From positions 1 to 61,323 of IMG/VR virus record IMGVR_UViG_3300045051_000399: a stretch of 61,323 nt of DNA; one strand, given 5' to 3'. Below, piece after piece: positions 5,472 through 59,150 of this stretch; the stretch's first letter is position 1; every line of letters starts with the position of its first letter. The position numbers were made by a program, and so were the translations under genes. Under the pieces are notes generated by a model, which saw only the letters and a list, made by a program, of their open reading frames with translations, was not told where the DNA came from and ran no database searches. Origin of the DNA: a virus.

Positions 5472-5482
5472 CGGGATAGGAG

Positions 5483-8054: not shown

Positions 8055-8076
8055 TCGGCGCGAGGAGGATCGCAAA

Positions 8077-20657: not shown

Positions 20658-20866
20658 GCGCCGACGACGAGCCGCGCATTTGGATCACGCAAGGCCCGAG
20701 CGGCGTGACGGAGAAACAGCTTCTCGACGCGCTCGACGAGCTGCGCGCCCGCAATAGTTACGTGCTCTCGTGCGGGCACGTGCACGACGAAGGCCGCCAG
20801 AGCGGGCACGTCTGGTGCGCCGCGTGCGGGCGTCACGTGCCGATGTATCCGAAGCCGCTCACGTGA
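20654..20866 (+). CDS. Small zinc-finger-like protein
   Basis: A 70-residue protein from GTG 20654. LSCGHVHDEGRQSGHVWCAAC gives Cys-x-His and C-x-x-C ligands; compare the protein at 17507. The stop overlaps the terminase start (GTGA). ATG 20645 is an alternative start. Confidence 0.5.
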   Translation: MSADDEPRIWITQGPSGVTEKQLLDALDELRARNSYVLSCGHVHDEGRQSGHVWCAACGRHVPMYPKPLT

Positions 20867-25188: not shown

Positions 25189-25190
25189 TC

Positions 25191-42500: not shown

Positions 42501-43471
42501 GCGACGGATCGGGCAGCACGATCACGCAAGCGGCGCGGCTCGTGCAGCACTTTTTGACGGAGCTTGTATTCAACGATCATCATACGGGCTTGTGGGCCGG
42601 GATCCCGCTCTTCGCCGATGGCGTGGCAATGATCCGCACGTCGTCGTACGCCTCGGCCGAGACGATGCAGATCGCGCGCGTCGGTGGCACTGGATACACC
42701 GGGCGGATCGCGATCATCGAGCCGACGACGCTCCGCACGTTCATCGAGCGCGTTGTGCACAGCTTCGGATTGCATCATGGGATCAACCGGCACGGACAAG
42801 TCGTGTGCGGGCATTACGACGACGCGATCGATACGACGCTCGGGTATCCGCACTTCCGCGACGTGCGCGAGATCGTCGGCCGCATCAACGTCGTGCCGCG
42901 TACGAATGAGCTTGAGAACTACATACCGTACGTTGACGACTTCCGGCCGGTGACGAACGACTTCAAAATCAAGTCGTACGTATCGGACGCAACCGCGATC
43001 GCCGCGAATCGCGATCGCACGAGCAAGGGCTCGGAGCGCACGCTCGCCTATTCCGCGAACGTCGTGACGAGCGCCGACGTGATGCAACGGGCCTTGTTGA
43101 TCGGCCGGTACGTGCAACAGTGGGTCGAAGTGCCGACATCGATCGTCGGGCAACGCGGCACGTGCGATCTCTTCAGCGTGATCCGCGTGACGGATGCCGA
43201 GGGCCTCGGCGCGGACGGCTATCAAGAGGCGTTTATCCTGATCCTCGAACATGAAACACAACCGCCCGATCCCGGCAGCAACCGGCCCATACTCACCGTG
43301 CTCAAGGGCCTCAATATCACGGCGCTCGCCGATGCCGCGTGCGTGTGGGGTCCGGACACGTTGACCGATTGGGATTCGATGAGCGACGAGGAGCGAGGGA
43401 TCTACGGTGCGTATGCCGCCGATGACGACACGATCCCGAGCGACAATTCTCCGGCGAAGGAGTGGCGATAA
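39569..43471 (+). CDS. Large tail hub / tip protein
   Basis: A 1300-residue protein from GTG 39569, overlapping the upstream stop (TAGTG). Mostly beta-structured with repeated Ig/fibronectin-like strand patterns in the middle (for example LTVTPSGGPTPDKYRFALA and GATGYEVYATQALQF). By size and position it is the central tip protein that binds the tail tube end and carries fibres. The family cannot be named from sequence alone. Confidence 0.6.
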   Translation: MPILTTIQARTTPGSEAYNIGGQPVALILWSNGQTVLNAIEDGWRMLIGFSDGTDQRSRSVAVEDSLASPKGSMCESPVSIYKMAAVVASGAAAAVQEAQLTSFDASGFTLDWLTTNGEATEIHVLAFVTGEITDAKIVSVFNNAKPQAVTGVGFRPDCVFTISGVTTDNLGFSGGPYALFQSLGVSDAVNQYVEMAWARLQDNVNPVQAHIQHISGEANLVTSIFQGFTAVSFAVQSLDADGFTINKNGFGATSLYHHFLAIKGATVKVGRVRQPASAGTVSLGIPFEASAILFQSCGSQHDGSGENLKGHFAMGAWTPTEARSTSIAADRPSGITHTARETRTADVLRLLVASATGSASTVGCVLEIEDNGATANFSTCDGIRRFVNFVAFLTGVATPPASCSDGTVPTVADPPDGPVFDGLGPHYDRFFTETDLDDGTVRYAMHQPMNDRGDLAVHPGRKEGLLLAADSIIRRTTDRLGGWQTSTCRFLYDDHQRKIRALIASGQWFNRETRPYLAKRDNVENALALGRFIIREYPLGSPFNVEVNGVDIIGTDFSPFSLDRDITAGAVFDGVHFPDAPTELLKMDPPKPIPALGGVWSDEASDVEPPILIGNAAIGSAAPDGMWTMGFGNLTEGPEAPAGLAAVVSSGGTITSAVLPYGRLFAQVWAVDGAGVAGDPYPFLPNGLPITLSGTGQKVTLTVTPSGGPTPDKYRFALATDYFGPRWLQILEVPGGTTSVVFDAHPALIAGSGAGAMTAGAFAPILERRRYIVVALIDGARTGASDTCRAYENTPYYRPIHVTNIPVIGATGYEVYATQALQFTDGSPLHAAPPEIFNRKWSVPVQLDADGYQYFEDRFDDLGVEFVDGATVPSGMLPVTYAGDETIDGVVYGRLVLSRWPCHLIIGVYAGGKRLADNHPDLLHQDHPAWPFAEPFRTVGGLDLTIIYARQGSAVLLSHLDGTAPVQVNACTTEDVGDGSGSTITQAARLVQHFLTELVFNDHHTGLWAGIPLFADGVAMIRTSSYASAETMQIARVGGTGYTGRIAIIEPTTLRTFIERVVHSFGLHHGINRHGQVVCGHYDDAIDTTLGYPHFRDVREIVGRINVVPRTNELENYIPYVDDFRPVTNDFKIKSYVSDATAIAANRDRTSKGSERTLAYSANVVTSADVMQRALLIGRYVQQWVEVPTSIVGQRGTCDLFSVIRVTDAEGLGADGYQEAFILILEHETQPPDPGSNRPILTVLKGLNITALADAACVWGPDTLTDWDSMSDEERGIYGAYAADDDTIPSDNSPAKEWR

Positions 43472-43970: not shown

Positions 43971-45485
43971 ATGCGTGCTCGCGTCGCGCTCCTCGTCGCG
44001 CTCCTCCTGACGGCCGTCTGGTGGCCGGCGGCCGCGCAAAATATCCCGGCCAGCTCTATCCGGTTCGCCTCGGGCGCACAGATCAGGAGCGGCACCGGCT
44101 CGCCCGTCGGCGTCGTCGATCTCCCTGGCGGCTCGATCTGGCTGCAAAGCGATGGCGCGAGCGGCGCGACGCTGTGGACGAACGTCGGCGGCGGCGTAAG
44201 CGGCTGGGAGCCTCCTGGCGGCGCGGGCGGGCTCACGCCTCATAACATCCTGTCGTCGAGCCATTCCGACGCCGTGGCGGCCGCCGGCTTGCGTGCATGC
44301 CTCATCGTGGCGAACAGCTCGAACCAATGGTCGAGGGTGTGCCCGAGCAGTTCGGGCGAGATGCTTCGGTACGGCGGATCCGATACGACGTTTTCGACGG
44401 ACGGCACGAGCCTCTCGGTGAGCGCCTCCAATCTTACCGTCGGCACTTTGCCGGCGGCCCGGTTCCCGGCGTTTACCGGGGACGTGACGACATCCGCCGG
44501 CGCTGTCGCGACGACGATCGCCGCCGGCGCGGTGACGAACAGCAAGATCGCGGCGGCAACGATCCTGTTCGATCGCTGGGCGCTCAACGGCTGCACGGCC
44601 GGGCAGCTCCCGCATATCAACGCCGGCGCGACGGCGTGGGAGTGCTCCGATCCGTCGGCGACGACGGCGCACAACATCCTCAGCGCAACGCATCTCGACA
44701 CCGTGCCGGCCTCGCTCGTGCAAGGCGATCTCTTGTATGCCAATGGCACGCCGGCGCTCACGCGGCTCGCGAAGTCGAGCAGCTCGACGAGGTATCTCTC
44801 GAATACGGGGGCGAGCAATGCGCCGGCGTGGGCGCAAGTCGATCTCTCGAACGGCGTGACCGGCAATCTTCCGGTAAGCAATCTCAACTCGGGCACGAGC
44901 GCGAGTAGTTCAACCTTCTGGCGAGGCGATGGCTCGTGGGCCTCGTCGGGCGCGAGCGGCGCGATTACGGCGAGCGCGTTCACGATGAACACGGCCCGGC
45001 TCCTCGGGCGCACCACGGCATCGAGCGGCGCGATCGAGGAGATCTCGATCGGCTCCGGGCTTTCGATGTCGGCGGGCTCGATCACGGCGACGGGCACCGG
45101 CGCGCCGAATAGCGATCGGCTGATCGGGATCACGATCGACGGCGGCGGCGTTGCGATCACGAGCGGCGTAAAGGGCTTCGTGATGACGCCGATCTCCGGC
45201 ACGATCACGGCGGCGACACTGCTCTCGACGGATGCGAGCGTGACGGCGTGCACGATCACGCTCGACGTGTTCCAAGACACGTACGCGAACTATCCGCCGA
45301 CGGCTGGCGGCGACACGATCACGGCGAGCGCGAAGCCGGCGCTATCGACGGCCACGACGAATCAATCGACGTTGAGCGGTTGGAGCACCGGCGTCACGGC
45401 CGGCCATATTTACGGCTTCAGCGTCGAGGCGTCGCCGACGCCGACGTGCACGCGCGTTACTCTCATGATCACGGTGACTCCATGA
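43971..45485 (+). CDS. Tail-fibre-like protein with Sec signal peptide
   Basis: A 504-residue protein from ATG 43971. [18 protein letters not shown] then PAAAQ is a textbook signal peptide (basic n-region, hydrophobic h-region, A-x-A cleavage before Q/N). The mature part is Ser/Gly/Thr-rich. [20 protein letters not shown] followed by [12 protein letters not shown] is the helical/beta repeat pattern common in phage tail fibres. A C-terminal beta domain with two cysteines follows. A cleavable export signal on a fibre-like virion protein is unusual. Confidence 0.65.
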
Positions 45486-46714
45486 GTAAGCGACTCTCGA
45501 TTGTATCGGCTACGCTCGCGGCTCTCCTGGCGATCGCGCCTTCGCTCGGCGCAACGATTCAAAAAACGCATTTTCTTTTGCAGACGGATCCCTATCTTGG
45601 AAACAATACGGGCACACTGCAAAACGCCTCGGGGGAAAGCTACGGGGTAATCGGTCACGTACGGATCGCCGGAAATGCCACGAGCAAAGTGATCTCGGCC
45701 GCCGGTAGCGGCAAGATCCTCTGGCAAACGGCCGCCGTTACGTTCGCGACTGCGGGCTCCGCATACCGCGTCGGGATTCAGGACGCGAATACTTCGACGG
45801 GCGTGGAAGATGGCACGTTCGACGTTTTCAAGGAATACGTGCAAGGCACCGACACGATCACGGCAAACGCGTACAACGTCGCAACCATGAGCAGCGGGAC
45901 AAAGACGATCAGCGATGGCGATCTGATCGTGATCGTTGCGGAGTTCACCACGCGCAACGGTGCCGATGCGATCAATAGCAATGGTGTCGGACCTGGCGTT
46001 ACGCAATCGGCGTTGTTCGGCGGCTTTCCCTATGGGACGAGCGATGCCGGCGCGCTCGCACGACTGACGAGCAGCTATCTCCACGCGCTGATCCAATTCG
46101 ACGACGGCACGGTTGGATGGATTCTCGGCACTATGCCGATCTCGAAAGCGGCGACATCCGTCGCAGTCAACACGGGCACAACGCCTGACGAGTACTGCGC
46201 GTCGTTTACGCCAAGCTACAAAGTCGAGATCGACGGCTTGGGATCATTGCTCTCTGGGATCGCCGGCACGGATAGTTTCGAAACGATCCTGTATTCCGAT
46301 CCGCTCGGCACGCCGTCTGTCGTGAATACGGTCACGCCGGATCCGGATGTCGTGGCCCAAGTCGCCGGCAATCTGGGCGTGCATTTATTTCACGAGCCGC
46401 CGACTTCGCTCACGGCCGGATCGACGTACTGCGTCGCTATTCGGCCGACGACGGCCAATTCGATCAACTACGGATATATCGACACCGCAAGCAGCGCCGC
46501 CGCCGATATCATTCGCGGCGCTTTGCCACTTGCGGGAGCAAAGGTGCTCAGTCGATCCGATCAGACCGGCGCGTTTTCTGTCGTGAGCAACAATTACATT
46601 CCAGTGCTGGTGCTGGGCGTATCTGGCGTTGATGACGGGATCGGGGGCGGTGGATCGTTTCCGTTTGCGCTCATGCACCGGGCCGGCGACGCGGTGCGAG
46701 GCGTCGGGAGATGA
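45482..46714 (+). CDS. Exported beta-rich protein, possible receptor-binding
   Basis: A 410-residue protein; ATG 45482 overlaps the upstream stop (ATGA). The N-terminus [20 protein letters not shown] followed by SLGA is a signal peptide. The mature part is beta-rich with Ser/Thr/Gly/Asn ([40 protein letters not shown]) and ends in [10 protein letters not shown]. No family recognised. The visible composition is somewhat less G+C-rich than the surrounding genes. Confidence 0.6.
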
Positions 46715-47490
46715 CGCGCCGACTGCTCTCGATCGTCGTGCTCCTCCTGGCGCTCTCGCTCGCCGTTCCTAGCGACGGCGCAAACGGGATCGTGATCACG
46801 TACAAGTCAAGCGTGAAGAGCACCAGCGCCGGCGCGCTCACGTGCTCGCCGACGTGGACGCCGGCGGCAAACGCACTCGTGGTCGCATTCGTGGTCGAGA
46901 CATATGCCAGCTCGCCCGTTGATCCGACGGGCGTCACGGGGCACGGCCTCACATACTCGGCGCTCACGCTCGGCACGTCTACGCTTTCGACGACGCACAA
47001 GCTCTCGATATGGGCCGCGAAAACCGGCGGAAGCCCGACATCGGTTGCATGCACGGAAACCGTGTCTGGCACGACAACCGGCGGGGCGATTATCGAGTTT
47101 GAAGTCGTCGGCGCGGATACCTCGGGTACGGCACTTCAAGCGTTTCAGGCGACGAACGCGACGAACACGGGCACGAGCACGACGCCGACAGTCACGCTCG
47201 CCTCGCCGACGCTTACCGGCAATCGGGCGATGACGTTCGTCGTTCAACTGAGCAACGCCGCGCCGACAACTTCGGGCACGTGGGAACTTACCGCCGGCGC
47301 GTCGGGCAATTACAACTCGCCCGCGACTGGTGTCGCGGTGCTCTTCAAAACATCTCCGTTTGATACGGCCGGCGCGGCGACAACGGCGAACGTCAATTGG
47401 CGTATGGTCGGCGTCGAGCTAAAGTCGGTCAAGCAACCGGGCGCGTTGCTCGGGGGCATTCGCAATCGAGTCGTTCAGCCCGTCAATTGA
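46711..47490 (+). CDS. Exported beta-rich protein
   Basis: A 259-residue protein. [20 protein letters not shown] then SDGA is a signal peptide. The mature part is Thr/Ser/Gly/Ala-rich beta sequence (VAFVVETYASSPVDPTGVTG; AMTFVVQLSNAAPTTSGTWE), like beta-sandwich adhesion domains. ATGA overlap with the upstream gene. Confidence 0.6.
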   Translation: MTRRLLSIVVLLLALSLAVPSDGANGIVITYKSSVKSTSAGALTCSPTWTPAANALVVAFVVETYASSPVDPTGVTGHGLTYSALTLGTSTLSTTHKLSIWAAKTGGSPTSVACTETVSGTTTGGAIIEFEVVGADTSGTALQAFQATNATNTGTSTTPTVTLASPTLTGNRAMTFVVQLSNAAPTTSGTWELTAGASGNYNSPATGVAVLFKTSPFDTAGAATTANVNWRMVGVELKSVKQPGALLGGIRNRVVQPVN

Positions 47491-47504
47491 TGGAGATCGC
47501 TACC

Positions 47505-50069
47505 ATGAAGCTCCGCGTCATCCTTCTCGCATTTTCACTCCTGGCGTTCGGAGCGATCCCGGCCGCCGCGCAATATCGAGGCGACATCGATCTCGGGGAT
47601 ACGTTCGATTGCAAGTTCACAACAACCGACACGTCGGGCGTGCCAGCGACGCTCGGCGGCACGCCGGCCGTGTCGGCGTATGTAGACAACGGCACGACGG
47701 AGATCACGGCCGGGATCACAACGTCGGCCGACTTCGACGGGCGCGTCGGCTTGAACAATATCCGCGTCGTTGCGACAAGCGGGAACGGATACACGACGGG
47801 CACAAACGTCGATCTTGTGATCACGACGGGCACCGTCGGCGGCGCGAGCGTTGTCGGGTACGTGCCGTGCAGCTTTTCGATCGACAAGCGATCCGGGCTG
47901 AGGCCCGCGACGGCCGGGCGCACGCTGGTCGTTGACGCGGCCGGCCTCGCGGATGCGAACACGGTCAAGCTCGGGCCGTCTGGATCGGGCACGACGCAAA
48001 CCGCACGCGACATCGGCGCGAGCGTATTGCTCTCCACGGGCACGGGCACCGGACAGCTCGACTTCACGAGCGGCATCGTCAAGTCGAACGTGACGCAGAT
48101 CGACGGCTCGGCAACGAACGGCAACAACGCCACGCTGAAGCTCGCCGGCTTGAGCATTGTCGCGGCCGCCGGCGCGGATGCCGTCACGATCACGGGCGGC
48201 GCGGCGAGCGGCGCGACGCCGGCCGGCGCGGGCATCAACGCGACGGGCGGCGCGGCGAGTACCACGGGCGGCGGCGTCTCTGCCGCCGCGATCAAGGCGA
48301 CGGGCGGAGCCGGCGCGGCCTCGACGAACGGTGCGGCTACCGCGATCACTGCGACGGGCGGCGGCACGATCACGGTGAGCGGCGGGCGTGGTGTGCTCTT
48401 TCAAGGAACGGGAGCCCGCGCCGGGCTGGACGTGACGGCAGGGGATACGGCCACTGTTGGCGCATTAGCGATCAACGGCGGGGCAACGAGCGGCCCTGGC
48501 CTGAGGATCGTCACGACTTCAGGGAACGGCGTCACGATCAGCCCGAATGTTGGGCACGGAATGGCGATCACTGCTGACGGTGTTGGCAACGACGCGATCA
48601 ACCTAGCAGGCGCAACGGATGGGAGCGGCCTTGACATCCTTGGAAGTCGCTCAGGTGCAGGCATCAAGATCACGGGCGGCAGCGCCTCCGGTGCCGCTCC
48701 CGGCGCGGCCGCGATCGATGCGACGGGCGGCGCGGCGAGTACCACGGGCGGCGGCATCTCTGCTGCCGCAATCAAGGCGACGGGCGGAGCAGGTGCAGCT
48801 TCTACGAACGGCGCGAGCGCTGGCATGACCTCGGATGGTGGCGGTACCACCACGGTCACTGGAGGCGCTGGTGCCGTGTTCACAGCGACAGGGAATCTCG
48901 ATGGCGTGCAATACGCCGGGGCAGGTTCTGGTGCTGGGTACAAAGCGACCGGCGGAGCAACCGGTATCGGAGGAAACTTTGTAGGTGGGGCAACGTCGGG
49001 CACTGCGATCAAAGCCTATGCGACAGCGGGCAATTCTGTTGGCGTCGATATTGCCAGTCGCGGTTCGCAAACCGCGCTCGGGATTAGTGCGCTCGGCACC
49101 GGGATCGGGATGTGGATTCACGGCGGTGCAACCTCCGGCGTAGGCGTGAAGATCGACACGACAAGCGGCGATGCGGTGCAACTAGCACCGACAATTGGCA
49201 ACGCGATCCAAGCCACCAGCGACGGGGCGGGCAATTACGTGATCGATCTTACCGCTGGGAGCAATTCCGGCGGGCTGAAGATCACGCCGCAAGGGACCGG
49301 GCACGGCATCTTCGTTGACTCGAACGGCACCGGCGACGGTGTGCGGATCGCAGGCGGTAATGTGAGCGGCGATGCGATCCATTTGGTGACCACTTCAGGC
49401 GACGGCCTCGACGCCTCAACCGACGTGGCTGGCGGCGTGCCCATTCGCGGAAGCGTGACGGGCAATCTCACCGGCTCAATCGGATCTGTGAGCGCGGGCG
49501 GCATCGCGGCGTCGAGCTTCGCGGCGAGCGCGATCGATGCAACGGCGATCGCCGACAACGCGATTGATGCGGCGGCCCTGGCGACAGATACGATCACGGC
49601 GGCGAAGATCGCGGCCGATTCGATCGGGGCATCCGAAATTGCCGACAACGCGATCGACGCGGGAGCGATTGCGACGGACGCGATCACGGCGGCGAAGATT
49701 GCCGCCAGCGCGATCACGTCGAGCGAGTTCGCACAGTCGGCGGCGGATGAAGTGTGGAGCACGGCGACGCGCGCGCTCACCGATAAGATCGACTTTACGC
49801 TCGCGGCGACTGGAGCCGATCCCACAGTGCCGAGCGGCGTCGTCGTGACCGACGCGGGCAACTCGACATCGCAAGCTAAAACGGATCTCACGGGCGGCAA
49901 TAACAACCGATACAAAGACGCGTTGATCCGGTTTACGGGCACGTGCAACGTTGACGACGAAGTAAAAAAGATCCTTACCTCTGACGCGACGACGGGGATC
50001 ATTACGTGGACGCCGGTCGTAACGGCGACACCGGACGACGGATGCGGCGTGCTGATCATCAACCGATAG
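47505..50069 (+). CDS. Large exported Gly/Ala/Thr-rich fibre-like protein with internal duplication
   Basis: An 854-residue protein from ATG 47505 (an in-frame ATG at 47490 is less likely). MKLRVILLAFSLLAFGAIPA then AAQ is a signal peptide. Residues about 230-670 are low-complexity Gly/Ala/Thr/Ser with turn-like GGA-x-S-G repeats, probably a beta-helix or other fibrous fold. A 160-residue unit is duplicated (480 bp apart). The C-terminal region has Ala/Ile/Asp helical repeats (AIADNAIDAAALATDTITAA) and a small globular end. Likely a receptor-binding or side fibre. Confidence 0.65.
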   Translation: MKLRVILLAFSLLAFGAIPAAAQYRGDIDLGDTFDCKFTTTDTSGVPATLGGTPAVSAYVDNGTTEITAGITTSADFDGRVGLNNIRVVATSGNGYTTGTNVDLVITTGTVGGASVVGYVPCSFSIDKRSGLRPATAGRTLVVDAAGLADANTVKLGPSGSGTTQTARDIGASVLLSTGTGTGQLDFTSGIVKSNVTQIDGSATNGNNATLKLAGLSIVAAAGADAVTITGGAASGATPAGAGINATGGAASTTGGGVSAAAIKATGGAGAASTNGAATAITATGGGTITVSGGRGVLFQGTGARAGLDVTAGDTATVGALAINGGATSGPGLRIVTTSGNGVTISPNVGHGMAITADGVGNDAINLAGATDGSGLDILGSRSGAGIKITGGSASGAAPGAAAIDATGGAASTTGGGISAAAIKATGGAGAASTNGASAGMTSDGGGTTTVTGGAGAVFTATGNLDGVQYAGAGSGAGYKATGGATGIGGNFVGGATSGTAIKAYATAGNSVGVDIASRGSQTALGISALGTGIGMWIHGGATSGVGVKIDTTSGDAVQLAPTIGNAIQATSDGAGNYVIDLTAGSNSGGLKITPQGTGHGIFVDSNGTGDGVRIAGGNVSGDAIHLVTTSGDGLDASTDVAGGVPIRGSVTGNLTGSIGSVSAGGIAASSFAASAIDATAIADNAIDAAALATDTITAAKIAADSIGASEIADNAIDAGAIATDAITAAKIAASAITSSEFAQSAADEVWSTATRALTDKIDFTLAATGADPTVPSGVVVTDAGNSTSQAKTDLTGGNNNRYKDALIRFTGTCNVDDEVKKILTSDATTGIITWTPVVTATPDDGCGVLIINR
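48239..48335. repeat. Direct repeat copy 1 (480-bp spacing)
   Basis: This 97-bp stretch recurs at 48719-48815 with about 90 % identity by eye; most differences are third-position changes. It encodes the ATGGAASTTGGG(V/I)SAAAIK peptide and its continuation. Weaker similarity extends upstream, so an ancestral 480-bp (160-codon) duplication is likely. Confidence 0.8.
48719..48815. repeat. Direct repeat copy 2 (480-bp spacing)
   Basis: Second copy of the 48239-48335 element, exactly 480 bp downstream and in the same reading frame. The largely synonymous differences suggest selection on the protein rather than a recent copy event. Confidence 0.8.
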
Positions 50070-50102
50070 GCGAGCGAGTTACCTCAATGGGAGAGCGGGC
50101 CA

Positions 50103-50741
50103 ATGTCTAGCATGAATCTGTTCGGAAAAGCGTTTGCTAATCTGCTCGGCGGCGAGTCGTCGGGCGACACGTTCGCGATCGATTTTCTCAGCGACACGAT
50201 TAAGGCCGCTCTCACGACAAGCGCATACTCGGAGAATCTCGATACGCACGAGGTTTTTGCCGACGTGACCGATGAGGTCACGGGCACGGGGTACTCCGCC
50301 GGCGGCGTGACGCTCGGGAGCAAAACGATCACGTACACGGCGGCTAACTCGTGGGCGACGACGTGGGCAACCAATACGGCGTACGCGGTCGGCGACATCG
50401 TGCGGCCGACGAGCGGCAACGGGCATCTCTTCCGGTGCATCGTGGCCGGCACGTCGCACGCCTCAACCGAGCCGACGTGGCCGACGACGAGCGGCGCAAC
50501 CGTGGCCGACAATACGGTCACGTGGGCGGAGATCGGGCGCGGCGTGACTCAACTCGACTGCGGCGATCCCGCATGGACGACGGCGACGATCTCCGGCATC
50601 CGCAAGGCCGTCTTTTACAAGAGCGGCGGCGGCAATCCGTTGATTGGGATCATGACGTTCGACTCCGACATCGCGGTCACGAACGGCACATTTAGCATCA
50701 CGATCCCGGTGCTCGGGATCCTGACGTTCAGCACGCCGTAA
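50103..50741 (+). CDS. Tail protein with carbohydrate-binding-like module
   Basis: A 212-residue protein without a signal peptide. The N-terminal 60 residues are helical/beta. The middle WATNTAYAVGDIVRPTSGNG, then HLFRCIVAGTSHASTEPTW and TVTWAEIG (about residues 85-142), follows the pattern of chitin-binding type-5/12-like modules that are common in phage tail proteins. The C-terminus is beta-rich and hydrophobic. Confidence 0.65.
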   Translation: MSSMNLFGKAFANLLGGESSGDTFAIDFLSDTIKAALTTSAYSENLDTHEVFADVTDEVTGTGYSAGGVTLGSKTITYTAANSWATTWATNTAYAVGDIVRPTSGNGHLFRCIVAGTSHASTEPTWPTTSGATVADNTVTWAEIGRGVTQLDCGDPAWTTATISGIRKAVFYKSGGGNPLIGIMTFDSDIAVTNGTFSITIPVLGILTFSTP

Positions 50742-50758
50742 AGCGGTCGAGCCGATCA

Positions 50759-52051
50759 ATGTCGCTGATCCTGATCAATTCGTTTGACGGTGGCGAGGAC
50801 GTTACCGTCACGAATCTACCGAGCGGCCGCTCGTCGGCCGCCGGAAGTGCGCCGGCGATCTCCGCCGGAAGCACACTTGCCGCCGTGGCGGCGGTTGCGA
50901 TCGCGATCGCGGCCGCCGCAACGCCTATCGCCTCGGCGACGGTCGAGGGGGCGGGCGCTCGATCGGACGCACGCGGCACCGCGCCGGCGTTCGAGCTGGG
51001 GATCTCGGCGGATGGTGCGACGGCGGCCGCTCGCGCGAGTGGCACCGGGCCGAGCTTCTCCGCCGGCTCCATCCTGGCGGGCTCGGCGGCCTCCTCGACG
51101 GCGTTTGCCTCAGCGCCGGCCTATGCCTCCGGCTCTACACTCGCGGGCTCTGGCGCGGCCGCTAGCGCCCGGAGCACGGCACCGGCGATCAGTGCCGGGA
51201 GTGCGGCGGCCGGCACCGTGGCGGCCGCCGGCGCGCGTGGCACCGGGCCGGCCTACTCCGCCGGCTCGACGCTCTCCGGTATCTCGGCGCGAGCTGGCGT
51301 ACTCGGGTACGGCCCGGCGTTCTCGGCGGGCTCGACGATTGCGGGCTCCGGTGCGACGGCGGAGATCGTCGCAACGCCGGGCGTCGCAGGGATTGTCACG
51401 GCCGCCGCCGGCGCGACGGGATTCGGCCGCGCGGTTGGCATCGGGCCGACGTTCTCGGCGGGCTCTGCCCTGGCCGGCTCCACGGCCGCCGCATCGAGCC
51501 GCTCGCCAGCGCCGGCGTACTCTGCCGGCTCGACATTCGCGGGCTCTGGCGCGGCCGCGAGCGCTCGCGGGACTGGCCCGACGTTCGCGCTCGGCATCTC
51601 GGCCGCCGGCGCGACGGGCTCGGCCCTGGCGCTCGGCTTCGCGCCGACGTACGCACTCTCGCAAGCCTTCGCCGGAGCGACGGCGCGCGCAGCGGTGCGA
51701 GGTACCGCGCCGGCAATCAGCACCGGGACGACGATCGCCGGCGCGGCCGCGAGTGCGTTCGGCAGTGGCACGGCCGGCGAGCCCGGCCTCGGGACGGCGG
51801 CGCTCGGGAGCACCGCGATCGCCTCGTGCGTGCTCATCGGCGGCGAGTCGCTCATCGAGGATCTCGTGCTCATCGAGGGCGCGACGGCCTCCGCGTACGT
51901 GTATTGCGGGAAACCATTCATACCGGGGCCGCCGTTCCGTGTGCCGGGCCGGTACATCGATCGCGTGCGCCTCACGGCATCCGTCGTTGACATCGCGCGC
52001 CCGAGTGGGCGTTACATCGATCACGTGCGACTTGCGGGGAGGCTTACATGA
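50759..52051 (+). CDS. Protein with 14 contiguous 22-residue Ala/Gly/Ser repeats
   Basis: A 430-residue protein. Residues 32-339 divide exactly into 14 units of 22 residues with the pattern P-[AST]-[FYI]-x-x-G-[ST]-x-[LI]-A-G-x-x-A-x-A-x-A-x-G-x-[AG]; one clear unit is PAYSAGSTFAGSGAAASARG plus TG. The C-terminal 90 residues are a separate domain with SCVLIGGESLIEDLVLIEGA and a duplicated GRYID(R/H)VRL peptide. Repeats this regular suggest a fibrous or solenoid fold, possibly a shaft. No known family recognised. Confidence 0.7.
   Translation: MSLILINSFDGGEDVTVTNLPSGRSSAAGSAPAISAGSTLAAVAAVAIAIAAAATPIASATVEGAGARSDARGTAPAFELGISADGATAAARASGTGPSFSAGSILAGSAASSTAFASAPAYASGSTLAGSGAAASARSTAPAISAGSAAAGTVAAAGARGTGPAYSAGSTLSGISARAGVLGYGPAFSAGSTIAGSGATAEIVATPGVAGIVTAAAGATGFGRAVGIGPTFSAGSALAGSTAAASSRSPAPAYSAGSTFAGSGAAASARGTGPTFALGISAAGATGSALALGFAPTYALSQAFAGATARAAVRGTAPAISTGTTIAGAAASAFGSGTAGEPGLGTAALGSTAIASCVLIGGESLIEDLVLIEGATASAYVYCGKPFIPGPPFRVPGRYIDRVRLTASVVDIARPSGRYIDHVRLAGRLT
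50852..51775. repeat. 66-bp coding tandem repeat, 14 copies
   Basis: This interval encodes the fourteen 22-residue units. The copies are imperfect at the DNA level but keep register without any insertion: 308 codons = 14 x 22. Two units (residues 208-229 and 54-75) are degenerate. Confidence 0.8.
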
Positions 52052-52437
52052 CGGAAGCGGCAACCGGGCCGATCGTCGGCGATCTCGTCGTGTACCTCGA
52101 CACTGACAATCCGTTCGACTTGCCGATCGTCGATCGTGCCGGCGTGCGCCTCGACGTGTTGACGTGGGCGGCCGACTTCAAAGTCGATACCGACGAGACG
52201 CACACGGCAACGAAGCTCACCGTGGCCGTCGTCGGCGCGCCCGATCCGGAAGATGGCACGAAGTCTGTACTCCATTGGGTACTGACAGACGATCTCTTAC
52301 AACCGGGCGACGCGGCGAATCAATGGCCGGTGACTGAGACTCCAAAGACGTGGCCGTATTCAGTCAAGCGCACCGACGACGGGCTCGAAAAGATCGTGAG
52401 GCGCGGTCGGCTCATTGTGAAGCGGGCGCGGGAGTGA
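52048..52437 (+). CDS. Hypothetical beta-rich protein
   Basis: A 129-residue protein (VGDLVVYLDTDNPFDLPIVD; ATKLTVAVVGAPDPEDG), beta-rich and acidic with a basic end (KRTDDGLEKIVRRGRLIVKR). Similar small proteins occur near phage fibre genes. ATGA overlap with the repeat protein. Confidence 0.55.
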   Translation: MTEAATGPIVGDLVVYLDTDNPFDLPIVDRAGVRLDVLTWAADFKVDTDETHTATKLTVAVVGAPDPEDGTKSVLHWVLTDDLLQPGDAANQWPVTETPKTWPYSVKRTDDGLEKIVRRGRLIVKRARE

Positions 52438-52973
52438 TCCGGCTCCCGCGCATCACACGGCCGATCGCGATCTCGGCGGTGCTCATGGTGCTGGCATGGA
52501 CCGGCGCGCAATCCGACGGAAGCGCGTACTCGGACGCGCGGTTGCAGCCGGTGACGAGCGAGGCCGAGCCGATCGATTGGCGCTGGGCGATTACACAAGG
52601 CGGGCTTACGCTCGTCGTGCTTGTACTGTTGTGGAGCTATCGAAAGGATATGCAACGCTGGCAAGCCGACTCGGTGGTCGCGCAAGAGCGGGCCGATCGC
52701 GAACAGCGAGGCTTCGATCAGTCGCGCATCGACGAAGCGATCCGGTACCATCGGGCCGTCGAGTCGCTCTCGTCGCGCACCGACGCGACGTTGCAGCTCG
52801 TCGCCGAGGCGCTCTCCGGCCATAGCACCGTGATCGCGCGCAATACCGATGCGGTGCATCGCACCGCCAAAGAGGCCGAGCGCCTCGATCGCCGCATGGA
52901 GCTGATCGAGCGTCTCATCAATGACATCCGTCGAGGAGATCCGAATGACCGATCCCGAGCGCCTCTCGCATAA
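52434..52973 (+). CDS. Two-pass membrane protein with cytoplasmic/periplasmic coiled coil, lysis candidate
   Basis: A 179-residue protein from GTG 52434. The first hydrophobic segment (ITRPIAISAVLMVLAWTGAQ) could be a membrane helix or signal. The second (ITQGGLTLVVLVLLW) is followed by a long charged coiled coil (RWQADSVVAQERADREQRGF to ERLDRRMELIERLIND). It overlaps the M15 peptidase gene by 29 bp, so a holin- or spanin-like role is plausible. Confidence 0.5.
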   Translation: MIRLPRITRPIAISAVLMVLAWTGAQSDGSAYSDARLQPVTSEAEPIDWRWAITQGGLTLVVLVLLWSYRKDMQRWQADSVVAQERADREQRGFDQSRIDEAIRYHRAVESLSSRTDATLQLVAEALSGHSTVIARNTDAVHRTAKEAERLDRRMELIERLINDIRRGDPNDRSRAPLA

Positions 52974-53490
52974 TGCCGAGCAGCTCGCGCAATGTTACGG
53001 CCCGTTTCGTGATCGCGCCCGACTCGTACTCGACGGGCAAGAGGCGCGCGGCATGCGCCCGCGTATCGCCGCGCCGGCGTGGCGAAGCTCGGTGCTTCAA
53101 GCGGCCGCCGTCGCGGCGGGAAACTCCCAAGTCAAGTGGTCGTTTCATCAGGCGACGGCGAAGGATGGCACGCCCGAGTCGCTCGCGATCGACGTGCTCG
53201 ACGACGACTATCCGATGCCCTCGCCGCATCAAAGCGAATGGCCGGCACAGTTCCGCGCGTTTGTATTCTGGCTGGCGGCCCTGGCCGAGAGCCGGGGGCT
53301 CGAAACGGGCGGCGTGTTCGGGCTTCGCGGCGAGGAGCGCGAGGCGTGGCTCCACGCGATCCGCAACGCGGTCGAGCCCGTCGTATGGCTGGGTGCGATC
53401 GGCTGGGATCCCTGCCACGTCGAGCCGGGCGGAAACTTTACGACGGCGGCGGCGCGCGCCGGTCGGCGGCCGTGGGCGGAGGGATCGTAG
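52945..53490 (+). CDS. M15-type peptidase, candidate endolysin
   Basis: A 181-residue protein from ATG 52945 (GAGGAGATCCGA upstream). SFHQATAKDGTPESLAID (66-83) gives S-x-H and the A-x-D metal ligands, and WDPCHVEPGG (154-163) the C-terminal W-x-x-x-H. Together these are the zinc-site layout of VanY/L-alanyl-D-glutamate peptidases used as phage endolysins. The conserved E before the last His is not obvious, so activity is inferred. No signal peptide, hence dependence on a holin or similar. Confidence 0.6.
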   Translation: MTDPERLSHNAEQLAQCYGPFRDRARLVLDGQEARGMRPRIAAPAWRSSVLQAAAVAAGNSQVKWSFHQATAKDGTPESLAIDVLDDDYPMPSPHQSEWPAQFRAFVFWLAALAESRGLETGGVFGLRGEEREAWLHAIRNAVEPVVWLGAIGWDPCHVEPGGNFTTAAARAGRRPWAEGS

Positions 53491-55142
53491 TGTTCGGAGA
53501 GTGCGGCATCCTCGACGACGGCCGACGCGTGCTCGCGCCGTGGAACGCCGGCGGCGTGTACATTGGCGATCGGTTTTTTCCTGGCCCACAGGTACGCATG
53601 CCCGACGCCGTGCTCGACGCCTCGGGCCGGGCGTGGGTAGTCGGCAAGGCGCAAGCCGACATCGGCCCGATGCGCGGCGCGCTCGTGCTCTGTGAATCCG
53701 TCGGCGACTTCTGGCCGATCGTCAACGACAACGGCGCATCGATCCCGGCGTTCGGTGCGCGGTGCGTGATTCGAGCGGACGGGGCCGCCGGCGTGCGCGT
53801 GGGGATCGCCTCGGGCTCGCACTCATGGGCGAGCGTGGCCGTCGAATCGCTCACGGGGATCACGCGCCGCATGCACGTCGCCGAGATCGGCACGATCGCG
53901 GATGGCTCGGGCGCGAACGGCTTGCGCGGTTGGAGCGAAGTCGGTCGGCCGCTCCCGATGCTCCCGCTCGACGAGTCGTTGCTCGGGTATCCCGTGCGCG
54001 GAGCCTCGACGCTCAACGCGGGCGTGCAGATTGGCGCGGCCCTCGGGCCGGTGCCCGACTCGGTGCTCGTGGCGCGCGGGATGCGCGTCGGGACGTTGCA
54101 GAGCGGCGGCGTGGACTGGCAAGGGCTTCGGCTGAGCGCGAACGGCAAGTATTGGGCGGGCGTGCAATACGTCGGCGGCAAAGTGCACGGCGGCGCGGTG
54201 CCCGAGCTGCTCGATCCGGTGAAGCTCACGCCGATCTTGAAGGCGTGCGCGACGGCATGGATCTTCGCGTTCGGACGATACGGGCACGATCCGAGCGCGC
54301 CGTCGGACTGGACGATCGTCGTTGACGACGACACGCCGCCGCCGGATCGGCCGTTTCTGATCGCGCGGCTCGCCGACAAAACGAGCGCGGATCTCATCTT
54401 GAAGTACGCGCCCGTGTGGGAGCGCGTCGCCGGGATCTTCATCACAAACGAGAACGGCCGCGACTTGCAGCTCGAAGCAGATCGCGCGATCGGTCGAATG
54501 GACGCGTTGCGCCTCCCGCGAAAGCCCTTGCTTTCCTACACGGGTAAAAGCGTTGACGCGGCGATCGCGGTGAAAGAGATCCGATGGATCGGGATCGAGT
54601 GCTACCTCGACGCGGTGCACGGCGAGAGCCTCCTCGACGCCGAGCACCGATGGCGCAACGAGATCCAAAAAGCGATGAGCGCACGTCGTGCGATTGCGAT
54701 CATCGGCGGCGCGTCGGGCGACGGCGGGCGCACGATCGCACAGCTTCAGCGGCTCATGCTGCGATACTTCGAGCTTGCGCGCGTGGCCGGCGCGGAGCTG
54801 CTGATCTGGTTTGCGTGGGGGCGGGCGCTCGGCGGGCGGGCGCTCGGGCTCGGGCAATATGCGGAGAGCGCACGACTCGCGACGACACCGATCCCGGTGC
54901 CCGCCGGCACGTGGCCGCCGGCACCGCCGCCGCCGATACCGCCGCCAGTGGATGAGGGCAAGCCGAAAATGACGTTTGCAGAGTCGCTCGCGTTGACGCG
55001 CCAGTGTGCCGCGAAGTGGCGCACGGTGTACGGCAAAACCGATCAAGAGATGGACGAAGGACAAGCGCATATATGGCTCTGGCGAATGCTCGTCGAGGGA
55101 TGGTCGGCCGAGGCTATCCTCGCCGACATTTACAAACGCTGA
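53490..55142 (+). CDS. Large hypothetical protein, possible TIM-barrel glycosidase/virion protein
   Basis: A 550-residue protein starting at GTG 53490 (overlap TAGTG). The N-terminal 260 residues are beta-rich with repeated G-x-x-V-x-D strands. The middle (TSADLILKYAPVWERVAGIF, ITNENGRDLQ, IRWIGIECYLD) reads like strands and helices of a TIM barrel, with acidic residues at strand ends. After a proline-rich linker (WPPAPPPPIPPPVDEG) a small helical domain ends the protein. Could bind or cut surface polysaccharide. Confidence 0.5.
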   Translation: MFGECGILDDGRRVLAPWNAGGVYIGDRFFPGPQVRMPDAVLDASGRAWVVGKAQADIGPMRGALVLCESVGDFWPIVNDNGASIPAFGARCVIRADGAAGVRVGIASGSHSWASVAVESLTGITRRMHVAEIGTIADGSGANGLRGWSEVGRPLPMLPLDESLLGYPVRGASTLNAGVQIGAALGPVPDSVLVARGMRVGTLQSGGVDWQGLRLSANGKYWAGVQYVGGKVHGGAVPELLDPVKLTPILKACATAWIFAFGRYGHDPSAPSDWTIVVDDDTPPPDRPFLIARLADKTSADLILKYAPVWERVAGIFITNENGRDLQLEADRAIGRMDALRLPRKPLLSYTGKSVDAAIAVKEIRWIGIECYLDAVHGESLLDAEHRWRNEIQKAMSARRAIAIIGGASGDGGRTIAQLQRLMLRYFELARVAGAELLIWFAWGRALGGRALGLGQYAESARLATTPIPVPAGTWPPAPPPPIPPPVDEGKPKMTFAESLALTRQCAAKWRTVYGKTDQEMDEGQAHIWLWRMLVEGWSAEAILADIYKR

Positions 55143-55201
55143 TCGAAGGCTCGAAGCGCTGGCGGCGGAAGTTCCACGCGCGCCGACGTGCGATCGATCT
55201 G

Positions 55202-56743
55202 ATGCGCCGCGTGACGGCGGCCGATCTCTCGGTTCGCGTGACCGCGCTCCTCCTGGCGCTCGTGCTCCCGAGCTGTGGCGGCGGGCATCGGCCGCCGGTG
55301 GTGCAACCGCCGCCGTTCAACGAAGCGGCCGCGCGCGTGACGTGCGAGGGGATCTGGCGTGCCGAGCTGCAACGCGGCATCGATCCGTCGGGCCTCGCCG
55401 GTTGCCTCGCCGATCTCCGGCGCGGCGCGAGCGTCGCACAGATCACGGCGAACGTGCGGGCGAGCGAGGAGTACAAGCAATTGCACGCGCCGCCGCCGCC
55501 GGGCCGGCTCGGGCAAGTGCGCGCCGTCAATGCCGCGCTCGCCGACGACTCGGGCGGGCTCCTCGGGTATGGCACGTCGCTCTTTTGGGCGCTATGGGGC
55601 ATCGAGCACGACGCCGATCGTCTCGACAGAAACCTTGCCGACGCGCGCGCCGCCGGCTTCGAGTACGTGCGCGTGCTGGCAACCGTCGGGCCGGGCGGCT
55701 GGACGGATCGCGCCGTGGATTGGAAGTCGCCCGGCTGGGCCGTGCGCGTGGCGGCGCTCACCGATCGCGTGCGCGACAAGTACGGGATGCGCGTCGAGTG
55801 GTCGCTCCTCGGGGGCAGCGCGACGACGAAGAGCGCCGGCGATCGCGAAGCGATGGTGCGCGCGTTCATCGCGGCGATCGTGCCGCGTCAGTCGAAAGTG
55901 TGGGCGATCGAGCTGAGCAATGAGGCGAACGATCTCACGTATCCCGAGGCGAAGAGGCTTGCCGGTATTCTCCGCGCCGCCGGCTTCTCCGGACTGCTTG
56001 CGATCACGTCGCCGACGACGGACGCATGCGACGATCAGGCGGCGTGGTATGCCGGCACGCCGGCGACGTTCGCGACGATTCACTTCTCGCGCGCGACGGA
56101 TGGCGAGGGCGGCGCGTGGCGGCCGGCGCGGCAACCGTGGCGCGAGTCGCGCTTTACGTGCCCGAGCGTGCCGCATGCGTACTCGAACGATGAGCCTCGC
56201 GGCCCGCGATCGTCGGTCACGATGGAAGCCCGGCCCGAGCTGCTCGGCGCGGATGCCGTCACGACGTGGATCGCCGGCGTCTCGTCGTACACGTTTCACA
56301 CGGGCGCGGGCGTGCGCGGCGGCGGCTTCGAGGATCTCCACGGCACGAAGCCCTACATTCCGAGGCCGGCAAATCTTCGCGACGTGGAGAACTGGACGGC
56401 GACGACGAACACGATCCGCGCGTTGCGCGCGCTCCTCCCGGCCGACGTGCCGAATTGGGCGAAGGGCTCCTCGCGGCCCGCGATGTTTGATGTCGAGTTC
56501 GCGAACGTCGAGCGCGTCTATTGCGCGGCGCAAGATGCCGGGATGAAGCCGGGCAGTCGCTTCGCGTGCTCGGCGGTGCACGTGCACGGCGTCGCGAAGC
56601 TCACCGCCAAGCGCGCGATGCGCGTCGAGGTCTACAGCACTCGCGATGCCGCGAAGGTGCAGAGCGTCGATCTCCCAAGCGGCGGCGCGCTTCGCCTCGA
56701 TCCGAGCGCGCCCGGCGCGTTGCTCCTGGGGAGTTTCCAATGA
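55202..56743 (+). CDS. Lipoprotein with DUF4214-like segment and clan GH-A-like glycosidase domain
   Basis: A 513-residue protein from ATG 55202. The N-terminus has arginines, a hydrophobic stretch (VRVTALLLALVLPSC) and a lipobox-like LPSC with Cys25. Residues 44-95 (GIWRAELQRGIDPSGLAGCL ... ITANVRASEEYKQL) resemble DUF4214 helices. Residues about 118-430 look like a cellulase-type TIM barrel: ELSNEANDL places E241 after Asn as in the clan-A acid/base N-E motif, and TMEARPELLG places E342 about 100 residues later as the possible nucleophile. The C-terminal 90 residues are beta-rich. A phage-encoded lipoprotein glycosidase could degrade capsule or alter the envelope. Confidence 0.55.
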   Translation: MRRVTAADLSVRVTALLLALVLPSCGGGHRPPVVQPPPFNEAAARVTCEGIWRAELQRGIDPSGLAGCLADLRRGASVAQITANVRASEEYKQLHAPPPPGRLGQVRAVNAALADDSGGLLGYGTSLFWALWGIEHDADRLDRNLADARAAGFEYVRVLATVGPGGWTDRAVDWKSPGWAVRVAALTDRVRDKYGMRVEWSLLGGSATTKSAGDREAMVRAFIAAIVPRQSKVWAIELSNEANDLTYPEAKRLAGILRAAGFSGLLAITSPTTDACDDQAAWYAGTPATFATIHFSRATDGEGGAWRPARQPWRESRFTCPSVPHAYSNDEPRGPRSSVTMEARPELLGADAVTTWIAGVSSYTFHTGAGVRGGGFEDLHGTKPYIPRPANLRDVENWTATTNTIRALRALLPADVPNWAKGSSRPAMFDVEFANVERVYCAAQDAGMKPGSRFACSAVHVHGVAKLTAKRAMRVEVYSTRDAAKVQSVDLPSGGALRLDPSAPGALLLGSFQ

Positions 56744-57654
56744 GACGCACACTGCTCGCGCTCGCGATCCTCGTCGGGCTCGTCGCGCCGGCGGCCGCGC
56801 AAGAGTTCCCGCCGGAGCTGCCGCCGATTCAACCGTCGATCCCGCTGTTTTGGATGACGATCCCGGCTCCGGTGCTTGACTTGCCGAGCGCGCCTCCTGG
56901 CGAGCCGATCGACGTGATGTTGCTCGGGCCTTCGAATGTGTTCACGTCTCAGGCGGAGATGACGACGTATTGCGCGACGTTGCAAACGAACGCGAATAAC
57001 GTCTATGCGGCCGATCCGTTGAATCCGACGCGCGTTCGGATCGTGGCGTGTCTCTACCTCGCGAACTACGCCGCGCCGAAAAACATGAGCACCGAGCTAT
57101 CGCAGATCCAATCAAACCGACTCGGCGAATGCCCGACGTGCGTCCCGGCCGTGACGCGCGTCGTCGATGTCGCCGCACTTCGCGATCAGTACCACGCCGA
57201 TCGCGTCTCGCTCATCGACACCGGCTCTGGATCGTGCGGCCTCGGATACATGAACGCCGCGAAGTTCGGTAAGACGTGGGCGTTTTCAGTTTTTGATAAG
57301 GCGTGCGGAGCCACCAATAGCAGTGCCTGGCACGAATGGGGGCACAACGACGGCTTGTGTCACGACGACGCAAACGCGAGCGGTTGCACGCCGGCGTTTC
57401 CATACGGGTACGGATTCTGCGATAGCGCGCATGGCCGCCGATCGCCGATGGTGTATCCGAGCCCGTGCGGCGGCACACGTGTCATCTTCAGCAACAAAGA
57501 CAACACGACGACGTACGGGTACCCATTCGGCGATGCGACGCACGACGAAGCCGCCGTGCTGCGCTGGGCGATGCCGATCGAGGCGGCTTTCTATCAATCG
57601 ATCGGCTCGGTGCCGATGCCAAGGGCAACCGGCAAACCCGTTCCGACTCAATAG
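56740..57654 (+). CDS. Secreted metzincin metalloprotease
   Basis: A 304-residue protein. MRRTLLALAILVGLVAPAAA is a signal peptide with A-x-A cleavage before Q21. HEWGHNDGLCHD (198-209) matches the metzincin zinc motif H-E-x-x-H-x-x-G-x-x-H-D exactly, including the trailing Asp of adamalysin/reprolysin-like enzymes, and SPMVYPSPC (235-243) supplies the Met-turn. Eleven or more cysteines around this core suggest disulfides and extracytoplasmic maturation. RVIFSNKDNTTTYGYP also fits the adamalysin-like C-terminal region. Proteases of this type in phage genomes are rare. It starts 4 bp inside the glycosidase gene end and may process virion, envelope or competitor proteins. Confidence 0.75.
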   Translation: MRRTLLALAILVGLVAPAAAQEFPPELPPIQPSIPLFWMTIPAPVLDLPSAPPGEPIDVMLLGPSNVFTSQAEMTTYCATLQTNANNVYAADPLNPTRVRIVACLYLANYAAPKNMSTELSQIQSNRLGECPTCVPAVTRVVDVAALRDQYHADRVSLIDTGSGSCGLGYMNAAKFGKTWAFSVFDKACGATNSSAWHEWGHNDGLCHDDANASGCTPAFPYGYGFCDSAHGRRSPMVYPSPCGGTRVIFSNKDNTTTYGYPFGDATHDEAAVLRWAMPIEAAFYQSIGSVPMPRATGKPVPTQ

Positions 57655-57669
57655 GGGGAGGATCCGACA

Positions 57670-58080
57670 ATGAAACAGGTTCGCATCGTGCTCGTGCTCC
57701 TCGTCGCGTTCGCGGCCCTGGCGTTCGCCAGTGGTACGAGCGAGGCGCAAGTGATCATCAATCCGACAAAGATCGTGACTCCGGCGAGCCCGGATCACAA
57801 TGCGACGTTTGCCGGCGTGGCGATCGTCTCGTCGTATCAGCTCGTCTATCGAGACGGCACGACGGCAATCAATACGCAGGATTGCGGCAAGCCGACGCCG
57901 GATGCCGCCGGCAAGATCTCATGCACGATCCCGGCGGCGGTGCTCGCGGTGAAAAACAAGCAGCTCACCGTGCTCGTGAATACGATCGGCGACGGCGGGA
58001 CGACTCCGAGCGTGGTATCGGATTTTTTCGGCTCGCCCGGCGCGCCGGCGGCGGCGGGAAAGCCGGTGCCGACGCCGTAG
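57670..58080 (+). CDS. Exported small beta-rich protein
   Basis: A 136-residue protein; MKQVRIVLVLLVAFAALAFA then SGTSEAQ is a signal peptide. The mature part is beta-rich (FAGVAIVSSYQLVYRDGTTA; KISCTIPAAVLAVKNKQLTV) with two cysteines, like an Ig-type domain. It ends with GKPVPTP; the metzincin ends with GKPVPTQ. Confidence 0.65.
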   Translation: MKQVRIVLVLLVAFAALAFASGTSEAQVIINPTKIVTPASPDHNATFAGVAIVSSYQLVYRDGTTAINTQDCGKPTPDAAGKISCTIPAAVLAVKNKQLTVLVNTIGDGGTTPSVVSDFFGSPGAPAAAGKPVPTP

Positions 58081-58145
58081 TGCATGCGCTCGGGCGCGCG
58101 TTCGTGTGGCTCTGGCGCGTGCTCACGTTGCAATGGATTCATTGA
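58080..58145 (+). CDS. Possible 21-residue hydrophobic peptide
   Basis: GTG 58080 overlaps the previous stop (TAGTG) and the frame ends at 58145, encoding MHALGRAFVWLWRVLTLQWI plus H. It has the coupling typical of genes here but is very short, and could be chance. Confidence 0.25.
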   Translation: MHALGRAFVWLWRVLTLQWIH

Positions 58146-58158
58146 GGAGGATCGGCCA

Positions 58159-58515
58159 ATGGCAGCGGATGATCTGAAAACCGTCGTACGCGCAACCGAC
58201 GCGACAGGCGGATCGGGCGAGATCGGTACGGCGGGCACGGGCTCGACGGGCGCAACGACGGTATATGCGATGCCGGCGTGGAAGCTCGCACTCGTGCGCG
58301 CCGCGCGCGCGGGCTTGCAGTCATTCGCCTCGGTGCTCGGCGTCGGCGCAACGGGCTTGCCCGAGTGGATGCTCAACACGCCGTCGGCCGATTTTCTGAC
58401 GAAGATCAAGCTCGCGGCTGCGATCGGCTTCGGCACGGCGGCCGTGTCGATCGTGCAGGATACGATCGAGTTTCTGAAGGGGATCGATCAAACGCATCCG
58501 CAATACCGCGCGTGA
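58159..58515 (+). CDS. Hypothetical protein, possibly membrane-associated
   Basis: A 118-residue protein behind GAGGAGGATCGGCC. Gly/Thr/Ser-rich N-terminal 40 residues, then helices, one of them moderately hydrophobic (IKLAAAIGFGTAAVSIVQDT). Sits between exported proteins and a lipoprotein; role unknown. Confidence 0.55.
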   Translation: MAADDLKTVVRATDATGGSGEIGTAGTGSTGATTVYAMPAWKLALVRAARAGLQSFASVLGVGATGLPEWMLNTPSADFLTKIKLAAAIGFGTAAVSIVQDTIEFLKGIDQTHPQYRA

Positions 58516-58553
58516 TCGAACGACGAGTCGGCAACAACGAAGAGGAGGATCCA

Positions 58554-59150
58554 ATGACGTGGTACGAACGGCTCACGCCGGCGCGCGTGTTTCTCACGGC
58601 CGCCGCGCTCATCGCGCTCATCGTGTTCGCGGCCGCCGGTTGCGCGGCACGCGGCGCGAGCTTTACGAAGTCACTCGCGATCTACGGATACAAGGCGGAG
58701 AGCGGGATCGAAGTGATCGAGCACACGGTCGCACAGCTCGAAGCCGCGCACGCGCCCGGCGTCACGACGGCGCGGGCCGCCGACGTGATGAAGCTCGCAT
58801 ACAAGGCGGGCGGCCTCGGCAAGCAGCTCGCCGACGCGCTCGAACTGTTCGACAAGCTTGGGAGCGCGGAGGAGCGCGCGACGAGTCAAGCGGGCATCCT
58901 GGCGCTCGTCGAGTCGCTCTCGGCGACGCTCGGCGAGATTCTCAAGATCGATCTCGGCGGGACGGCGGCACAGATCGCCGCGCTCGTCGGTAACGTGACG
59001 GGCTTGCTCGACGCGTTGAAGATCGAGATCGCGAAGTTCCACGCGGGAGCCTCGACGGGCACGACGGGCTTGCTCACGATGCCGGGGGCCGGCATCACAG
59101 TCGGCAACGGGATCACGTTGACAGAAGCGAACCTCGTCGCCGCGCACTGA
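58554..59150 (+). CDS. Lipoprotein
   Basis: A 198-residue protein behind GAGGAGGATCCA. TPARVFLTAAALIALIVFAA then AGCAARGASF is a lipoprotein signal (lipobox A-A-G-C, Cys at about residue 30). The mature part is helical (SGIEVIEHTVAQLEAAHAPG ... KQLADALELFDKLGSAEERA) with a Gly/Thr-rich end. Such a protein could be an outer-membrane spanin component or an exclusion lipoprotein; the length is greater than for typical spanins. Confidence 0.65.
   Translation: MTWYERLTPARVFLTAAALIALIVFAAAGCAARGASFTKSLAIYGYKAESGIEVIEHTVAQLEAAHAPGVTTARAADVMKLAYKAGGLGKQLADALELFDKLGSAEERATSQAGILALVESLSATLGEILKIDLGGTAAQIAALVGNVTGLLDALKIEIAKFHAGASTGTTGLLTMPGAGITVGNGITLTEANLVAAH

Follow-up and report, generated by a model that had tools for sequence, protein, structure and literature searches.

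The window analysed here, which is the whole 61,323-base IMG/VR virus record IMGVR_UViG_3300045051_000399 (65% GC), is a tailed phage in which terminase, portal and tape measure genes are present. Its distal late region (43971-59150; genes are named by their start position) is best read, with a rough probability of 0.55 and on the basis of sequence comparisons, as a fibre and surface-protein module routed through the host Sec pathway, the fibres being matured by export, cleavage and disulfide formation before they join virions. Signal peptidase I would remove the leader, and the new N-terminus would match the one with which ordinary cytoplasmic fibres begin. The exported proteins would then fold with disulfide bonds in the oxidising periplasm, and the matured fibres would dock onto tails leaving the cytoplasm once holin and endolysin have opened the cell, while an exported metzincin and lipoproteins may act on the envelope or matrix. 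Two points favour this reading: the signal-bearing proteins fill the ordinary fibre slot, and the predicted cleavage restores the N-terminus of an ordinary fibre. Its parts differ in strength: disulfide formation in the exported proteins is likely, and for virion attachment after export the odds appear even.

The initial annotation placed Sec signals at six starts (43971, 45482, 46711, 47505, 56740 and 57670) and lipoprotein signals at two (55202 and 58554), all of which are present there as in-frame open reading frames. Signals were evaluated with a home-made, ad hoc scorer of n-, h- and c-regions, tried on 12 known Escherichia coli proteins, where seven signal peptides gave 8.3-11.2 and five cytoplasmic or membrane controls gave 6.9 or nothing. 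Seven of the eight signals are firm by this measure, namely the six of type I and the lipobox of 58554, and that of 55202 is plausible only. The type I signals (scores of 11.2, 9.0, 10.7, 11.5, 11.3 and 12.2, in the order above) combine a positive n-region, a hydrophobic core of 7-15 residues and small residues at -3/-1, except for an acidic residue at -3 in 46711. The A-x-A ends attributed to all six are strict in 43971, 47505 and 56740 (AAA/Q, the slash marking the cut); the other sites are S-E-A/Q (57670), S-L-G/A (45482) and D-G-A/N (46711). Judged against the lipobox consensus [LVI][ASTVI][GAS]C after a hydrophobic core, 58554 (AAG/C, score 11.6) is near consensus with Ala at -3, whereas 55202 (L-P-S-C, score 7.5, not flagged by the scorer) has an off-consensus Pro at -2, no ribosome-binding site and possible in-frame starts further upstream.

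At a threshold of 8.5, none of the 718 internal in-frame ATG, GTG or TTG codons of the genome was retained, whereas 8 of 86 predicted genes of at least 60 aa were: the six type I genes, 52434, whose product has two hydrophobic segments, and 13503, marginal at 8.7. A check for downstream starts that would remove the signals found no good one. Indeed, 43971 has no other in-frame start within the next 90 codons, and the alternatives in the remaining genes are only GTG/TTG or distant ATG codons, nearly all without a ribosome-binding site. Strong ribosome-binding sites precede 57670 and 58554. These signals are not a product of chance, and genuine Sec export of their carriers is very probable. The impression that several of these proteins look like tail fibres was also borne out, by a fibre repeat that 43971 has in common with about 80 viral contigs and by a match of the C-terminal part of 47505 to PHROG tail fibre families (E=1.5e-11).

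A natural experiment is provided by the N-terminal domain of the 47505 protein, i.e. its first ~110 mature residues, which is present in many uncultured phages. Among 71 distinct homologues, 64 carry no signal, in agreement with the earlier remark that ordinary fibres lack an export signal, and seven do; the latter are found in the window and in six of the fetched viral loci (L093, L095, L117, L138, L153 and L154). The 64 signal-less proteins begin at or beside the domain (MSYRGDIALGATIDIKFTT...), and for 39 of them a leader is impossible owing to an in-frame stop at most 16 codons upstream. In all seven signal-bearing members, the predicted cut falls 0-2 residues from the first residue of the domain. 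In 47505 the N-terminus after predicted cleavage reads QYRGDI..., to be compared with (M)SYRGDI... in an ordinary fibre. The mature N-terminal peptides are predicted to be pyroGlu-YRGDIDLGDTFDCK (pyroGlu, pyroglutamate) and, for L095, QYRGDIRLGDTLDFK; the unprocessed forms would start MKLRVILL... or MKKLLSAIL....

Cysteines and neighbouring genes follow the signal. Exactly two domain cysteines are found in 7/7 signal-bearing members versus 2/64 signal-less ones (p=3e-8), 61 of the 64 having none or one. These cysteines occupy three distinct pairs of positions, one common to the window and the clade of L117, L138, L153 and L154, one in L095 and one in L093; the whole mature 47505 protein has four (C36, C122, C814 and C847), of which C36 and C122 would form the predicted disulfide of the domain. 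On the tree, the signal label needs four changes (gains or losses), at least three of which are forced by supported branches. Of the genes immediately preceding a signal-bearing fibre, all five whose start can be judged carry a signal themselves, versus 0/60 in signal-less loci; in two further loci with a signal-bearing fibre the stretch ends in or near the homologous upstream gene, whose true start cannot be judged. Three signal-less homologues of 45482 (L091, L119, L144) each lie directly upstream of a signal-less fibre, and both C239 and C317 are missing at those positions in all three.

Even cysteine numbers are preferred among exported proteins, and a signal peptide together with an even number of cysteines has been used as a criterion for periplasmic, DsbA-type disulfide proteins (PMC7678975). 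After removal of leaders and lipobox cysteines, the mature count (Table 1) is even in all seven cysteine-bearing signal proteins of the window, versus 9 even and 14 odd among the signal-less genes in the right half of the genome (p=0.007). The same bias is seen in the fetched loci, where 63 distinct signal-bearing proteins comprise 47 even, 7 odd and 9 without cysteine, and 1473 signal-less proteins comprise 374 even, 567 odd and 532 without (p=5e-12, the survey counts ignoring kinship between the sequences). Some of the odd counts are false positives of the scorer or marginal cases, and one is due to the lipobox cysteine of 58554. An apparent signal peptide in L002 was discarded as a tape-measure false positive.

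The module is not confined to the window. A distantly related 66.9-kb phage (L095/L097/L098), with homologous early genes and signal genes of its own, has the same order of tape measure, tail tip, signal-bearing fibre genes, repeat protein, lysis genes and lipoprotein; its signal-bearing fibre genes encode 14, 8, 2 and 4 mature cysteines, and one of their products is homologous to 43971 (E 3e-44). Several signal-bearing fibre-slot genes are also present in each of L026, L059, L069 and L073, in unrelated surroundings. Signal-bearing fibre modules thus occur in different phage contexts. The module lies upstream of the terminase in L138 (4144-9659) and between portal/capsid and tail-type genes in L153 and L154; the window differs from these in having a siphophage-like tail module. 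A protein beside the signal-bearing fibre genes of L026 (2309-3130) starts with MSLIKPSRRLFLVRAALAAPALITC, which resembles a twin-arginine (Tat) signal. Pieces of fibre are shared between L026 and the isolates Bradyrhizobium ppBjS10J-1, Leptospira LE4, Manatee Spring and Rctr41k, none of which has a signal-bearing fibre cluster.

The N-terminal domain was modelled from 68 homologues as a beta-sandwich with a predicted local distance difference test (pLDDT) score of 94. Generic immunoglobulin-like (Ig-like) folds only were matched in the PDB. In the search against viral models (BFVD), many phage proteins matched weakly; one of these is named BppU N-terminal domain (E 1.8e-3, template-modelling score ~0.53-0.56) and two are named LtfC/p132/Gp6. 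Pfam and PHROG profiles, BppU included, gave no match. As domains of the BppU type serve to attach fibres to tails, this weak match is a hint, not a proof, that the exported 47505 protein may keep a docking domain. A match to the phage GP4 fibre-tail adaptor (Z 7.2), obtained with a first model built from eight sequences (pLDDT 73.5), tied with unrelated Ig-like folds, was absent from the list for the better model and was not used.

Several points weigh against Sec-matured virion fibres. Virion assembly is cytoplasmic, and an exported fibre and its tail would stay apart until lysis. A single clade of signal-bearing fibres is not formally rejected (approximately unbiased test, p=0.059), and only three independent pairs are available, nearly all pairings being concordant but too few for significance. 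The C-terminal domain of 43971 shows no clean split, as its signal-less homologue in L079 also has two cysteines. The likeness to BppU/LtfC is weak and at fold level (E about 1e-3), and the Ig-like fold concerned is very common. Finally, L154 is a true exception to the even-cysteine rule. Three adjacent signal proteins at 3930-8106 of this locus have 3, 1 and 9 cysteines, which might mean intermolecular disulfides.

The most serious alternative is that the proteins are exported but stay outside the virion, acting on the infected cell or around it before lysis as secreted or surface adhesins, as decoys, as enzymes that degrade the matrix or as proteins that mask receptors (superinfection exclusion). 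The export and cysteine evidence is equally compatible with it, 56740 is similar to Mep72, a secreted metzincin of biofilms, two proteins have the look of lipoproteins, and lambda Lom is a precedent for an exported phage protein outside the virion (PMC12309495). Such a role is likely for the metzincin-type protease and the lipoproteins. As an account of the whole set it is rather unlikely, given that 43971, 45482 and 47505 have ordinary signal-less homologues in the fibre slot, that exported genes fill most of this slot (in the window, L026, L059, L073 and L095) and leave few other fibre candidates, and that the domain which normally opens the fibre is intact right behind the cleavage site. 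Of the two proposals made in the initial annotation, exported effectors or adhesins is possible, and Sec-matured virion fibres fit better with carriers that are homologues of ordinary fibre genes. The other proposal, hydrophobic N-termini retained without Sec processing for a virion role such as membrane insertion or anchoring, is very unlikely. Hydrophobic N-terminal segments do exist, and membrane insertion is known for certain phage tail proteins; the segments nevertheless have standard signal length and charge, good cleavage sites ending exactly at the ordinary fibre start and Gln at +1 in four cases, they differ in sequence yet obey Sec rules, and cysteine pairs and parity track them. Least probable of all are functionless leftovers from captured secreted host genes, which would suit the look of the protease but not the nesting of signal-bearing 47505 members among phage fibres, the cysteine pairs that arose at different sites along with the signals, or the arrangement kept in the distant L095 phage.

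Table 1. Features of the window; Cys, cysteines; mature, after removal of leader or lipobox cysteine
Position	Strand	Product	Remarks
20863-22722		gpA-type terminase	
26500-28044		lambda-type portal	
29433-31451		capsid	
34900-38745		tape measure	
39569-43471		tail-tip-type protein, 1300 aa	assigned by position and size; followed by the signal-bearing region
43971-45485	+	fibre-type protein, 504 aa	signal peptide 43971-44036; 6 mature Cys
45482-46714	+	fibre-slot protein, 410 aa	signal peptide 45482-45550; 2 mature Cys (C239, C317)
46711-47490	+	259-aa protein directly upstream of 47505 fibre	signal peptide 46711-46782; 2 mature Cys
47505-50069	+	tail-fibre protein, 854 aa	signal peptide 47505-47570 (..IPAAA/QYRGDIDLG); N-terminal beta-sandwich; 4 mature Cys
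50112-50741	+	signal-less protein, CBM5/12-type stretch	phrog_644
50759-52051	+	signal-less low-complexity repeat protein	similar repeat protein at same place in L095 phage (by eye)
52434-52973	+	two-hydrophobic-segment protein, probable lysis gene	weak Rz-like spanin match
52945-53490	+	probable peptidase-type endolysin	assigned on a His/Asp pattern and on position; no family match
53490-55142	+	signal-less late protein, 550 aa, 6 Cys	no family match
55202-56743	+	possible lipoprotein, 513 aa	weak lipobox LPS/C; 6 mature Cys besides lipobox Cys
56740-57654	+	putative exported metzincin-type protease	signal peptide 56740-56799; 10 mature Cys
57670-58080	+	predicted exported 136-aa protein	signal peptide 57670-57747; 2 mature Cys
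58159-58515	+	holin-like small membrane protein (weak)	phrog_443, E 0.14
58554-59150	+	predicted lipoprotein	AGGAGG ribosome-binding site; lipobox AAG/C; no mature Cys

The remaining genes of the region are listed in Table 1. The 56740 product has the metzincin (M12) pattern HExxHxxGxxH(D) as HEWGHNDGLCHD and the Met-turn as RSPMVYPS. It matches Pfam Reprolysin_3 above the family cut-off (1.3e-5) and NCBIfam Mep72 in part of the profile only (2.3e-12; 46.3 bits, below the curated cut-off of 645 bits). The 56740 and 57670 products end with the same C-terminal tail, GKPVPT(Q/P) (57640-57654 and 58060-58080). The L095 phage likewise has a lipoprotein similar to 58554 beside its holin region; for an o-spanin pairing of 58554 or 55202, the only hint of an inner-membrane partner is the weak Rz-like match of 52434. 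No relative of 46711 was detectable at the sequence level in the related loci fetched.

An exact 127-base repeat at both ends (1-127 and 61197-61323) indicates that the genome is probably circularly complete, at ~61.2 kb. A glycosyltransferase 2/PIG-L deacetylase gene and more small genes occupy an unusual place between terminase and portal (22964-26503), and an Mgm101-type recombination protein is encoded at 5619-6626 (Pfam E 8e-32). No close isolate was found. Phage isolates gave no match to the window in a nucleotide search, nor to the tail-tip protein, 43971, 55202, 56740 and the L073 and L138 fibres; the 47505 N-terminal domain was found in none of 50,697 phage records, in which 47505 itself gave one partial match. 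Viral contigs gave no match to the 56740, 55202 and 53490 proteins and one matching fragment (L002) for the tail-tip protein. A scan of genome contigs for the host yielded two loci, both signal-less, from which no host is called.

The folding and assembly of tailed-phage fibres are generally placed in the reducing cytoplasm. Here, Sec signals have been gained (or lost) on fibre genes more than once, together with matching cysteine pairs and with signals on neighbouring genes, which points to fibres being matured outside the cytoplasm in several lineages of uncultured phages that differ in gene context. It is tentatively proposed, at slightly less than even odds, that this represents a recurrent strategy of tailed phages, whose receptor-binding fibres would be Sec-exported, become oxidised in the periplasm and not attach to the particle until lysis. 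If so, the last step of virion assembly would move outside the cytoplasm, infection may depend on the host disulfide machinery, and a signal peptide plus a cysteine pair would be a search rule for such phages. Disulfide-stabilised fibres would also be possible, as ready-made, disulfide-stabilised binding proteins.

In the open-access literature, no description of signal peptides on sets of tail fibres was found, the cases described being lysis proteins, Lom and the like. Lambda Lom, which has a signal peptide, is encoded between spike and fibre genes (PMC12309495). As in the window, it is a signal-bearing gene among spike and fibre genes; unlike the window proteins, it is a single outer-membrane barrel of the host envelope and is not homologous to fibres. 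SAR endolysins and o-spanins are Sec-exported phage proteins as well (PMC3765740; PMC3556154). They differ from the window fibres in being lysis proteins, and SAR signals are uncleaved. The filamentous phage coat proteins pIII and pVIII are virion proteins with cleaved signal peptides, but their virions assemble at the membrane, whereas the window encodes the terminase, portal and tape measure of a tailed phage. Biofilm metzincins of the Mep72 type share with 56740 a catalytic metzincin region and, as predicted for 56740, secretion; 56740 is phage-coded and matches the profile in part. The BppU N-terminal and LtfC-p132-Gp6 domains weakly resemble the 47505 domain in fold with no match in sequence, and their typical members are not known to have a signal peptide. 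The signal-less fibres that carry the 47505 domain (L087-L092 and others) have the same beta-sandwich, the same slot, similar upstream genes and 45-70% domain identity, but they start directly at the domain and have no signal on either the fibre or its upstream neighbour.

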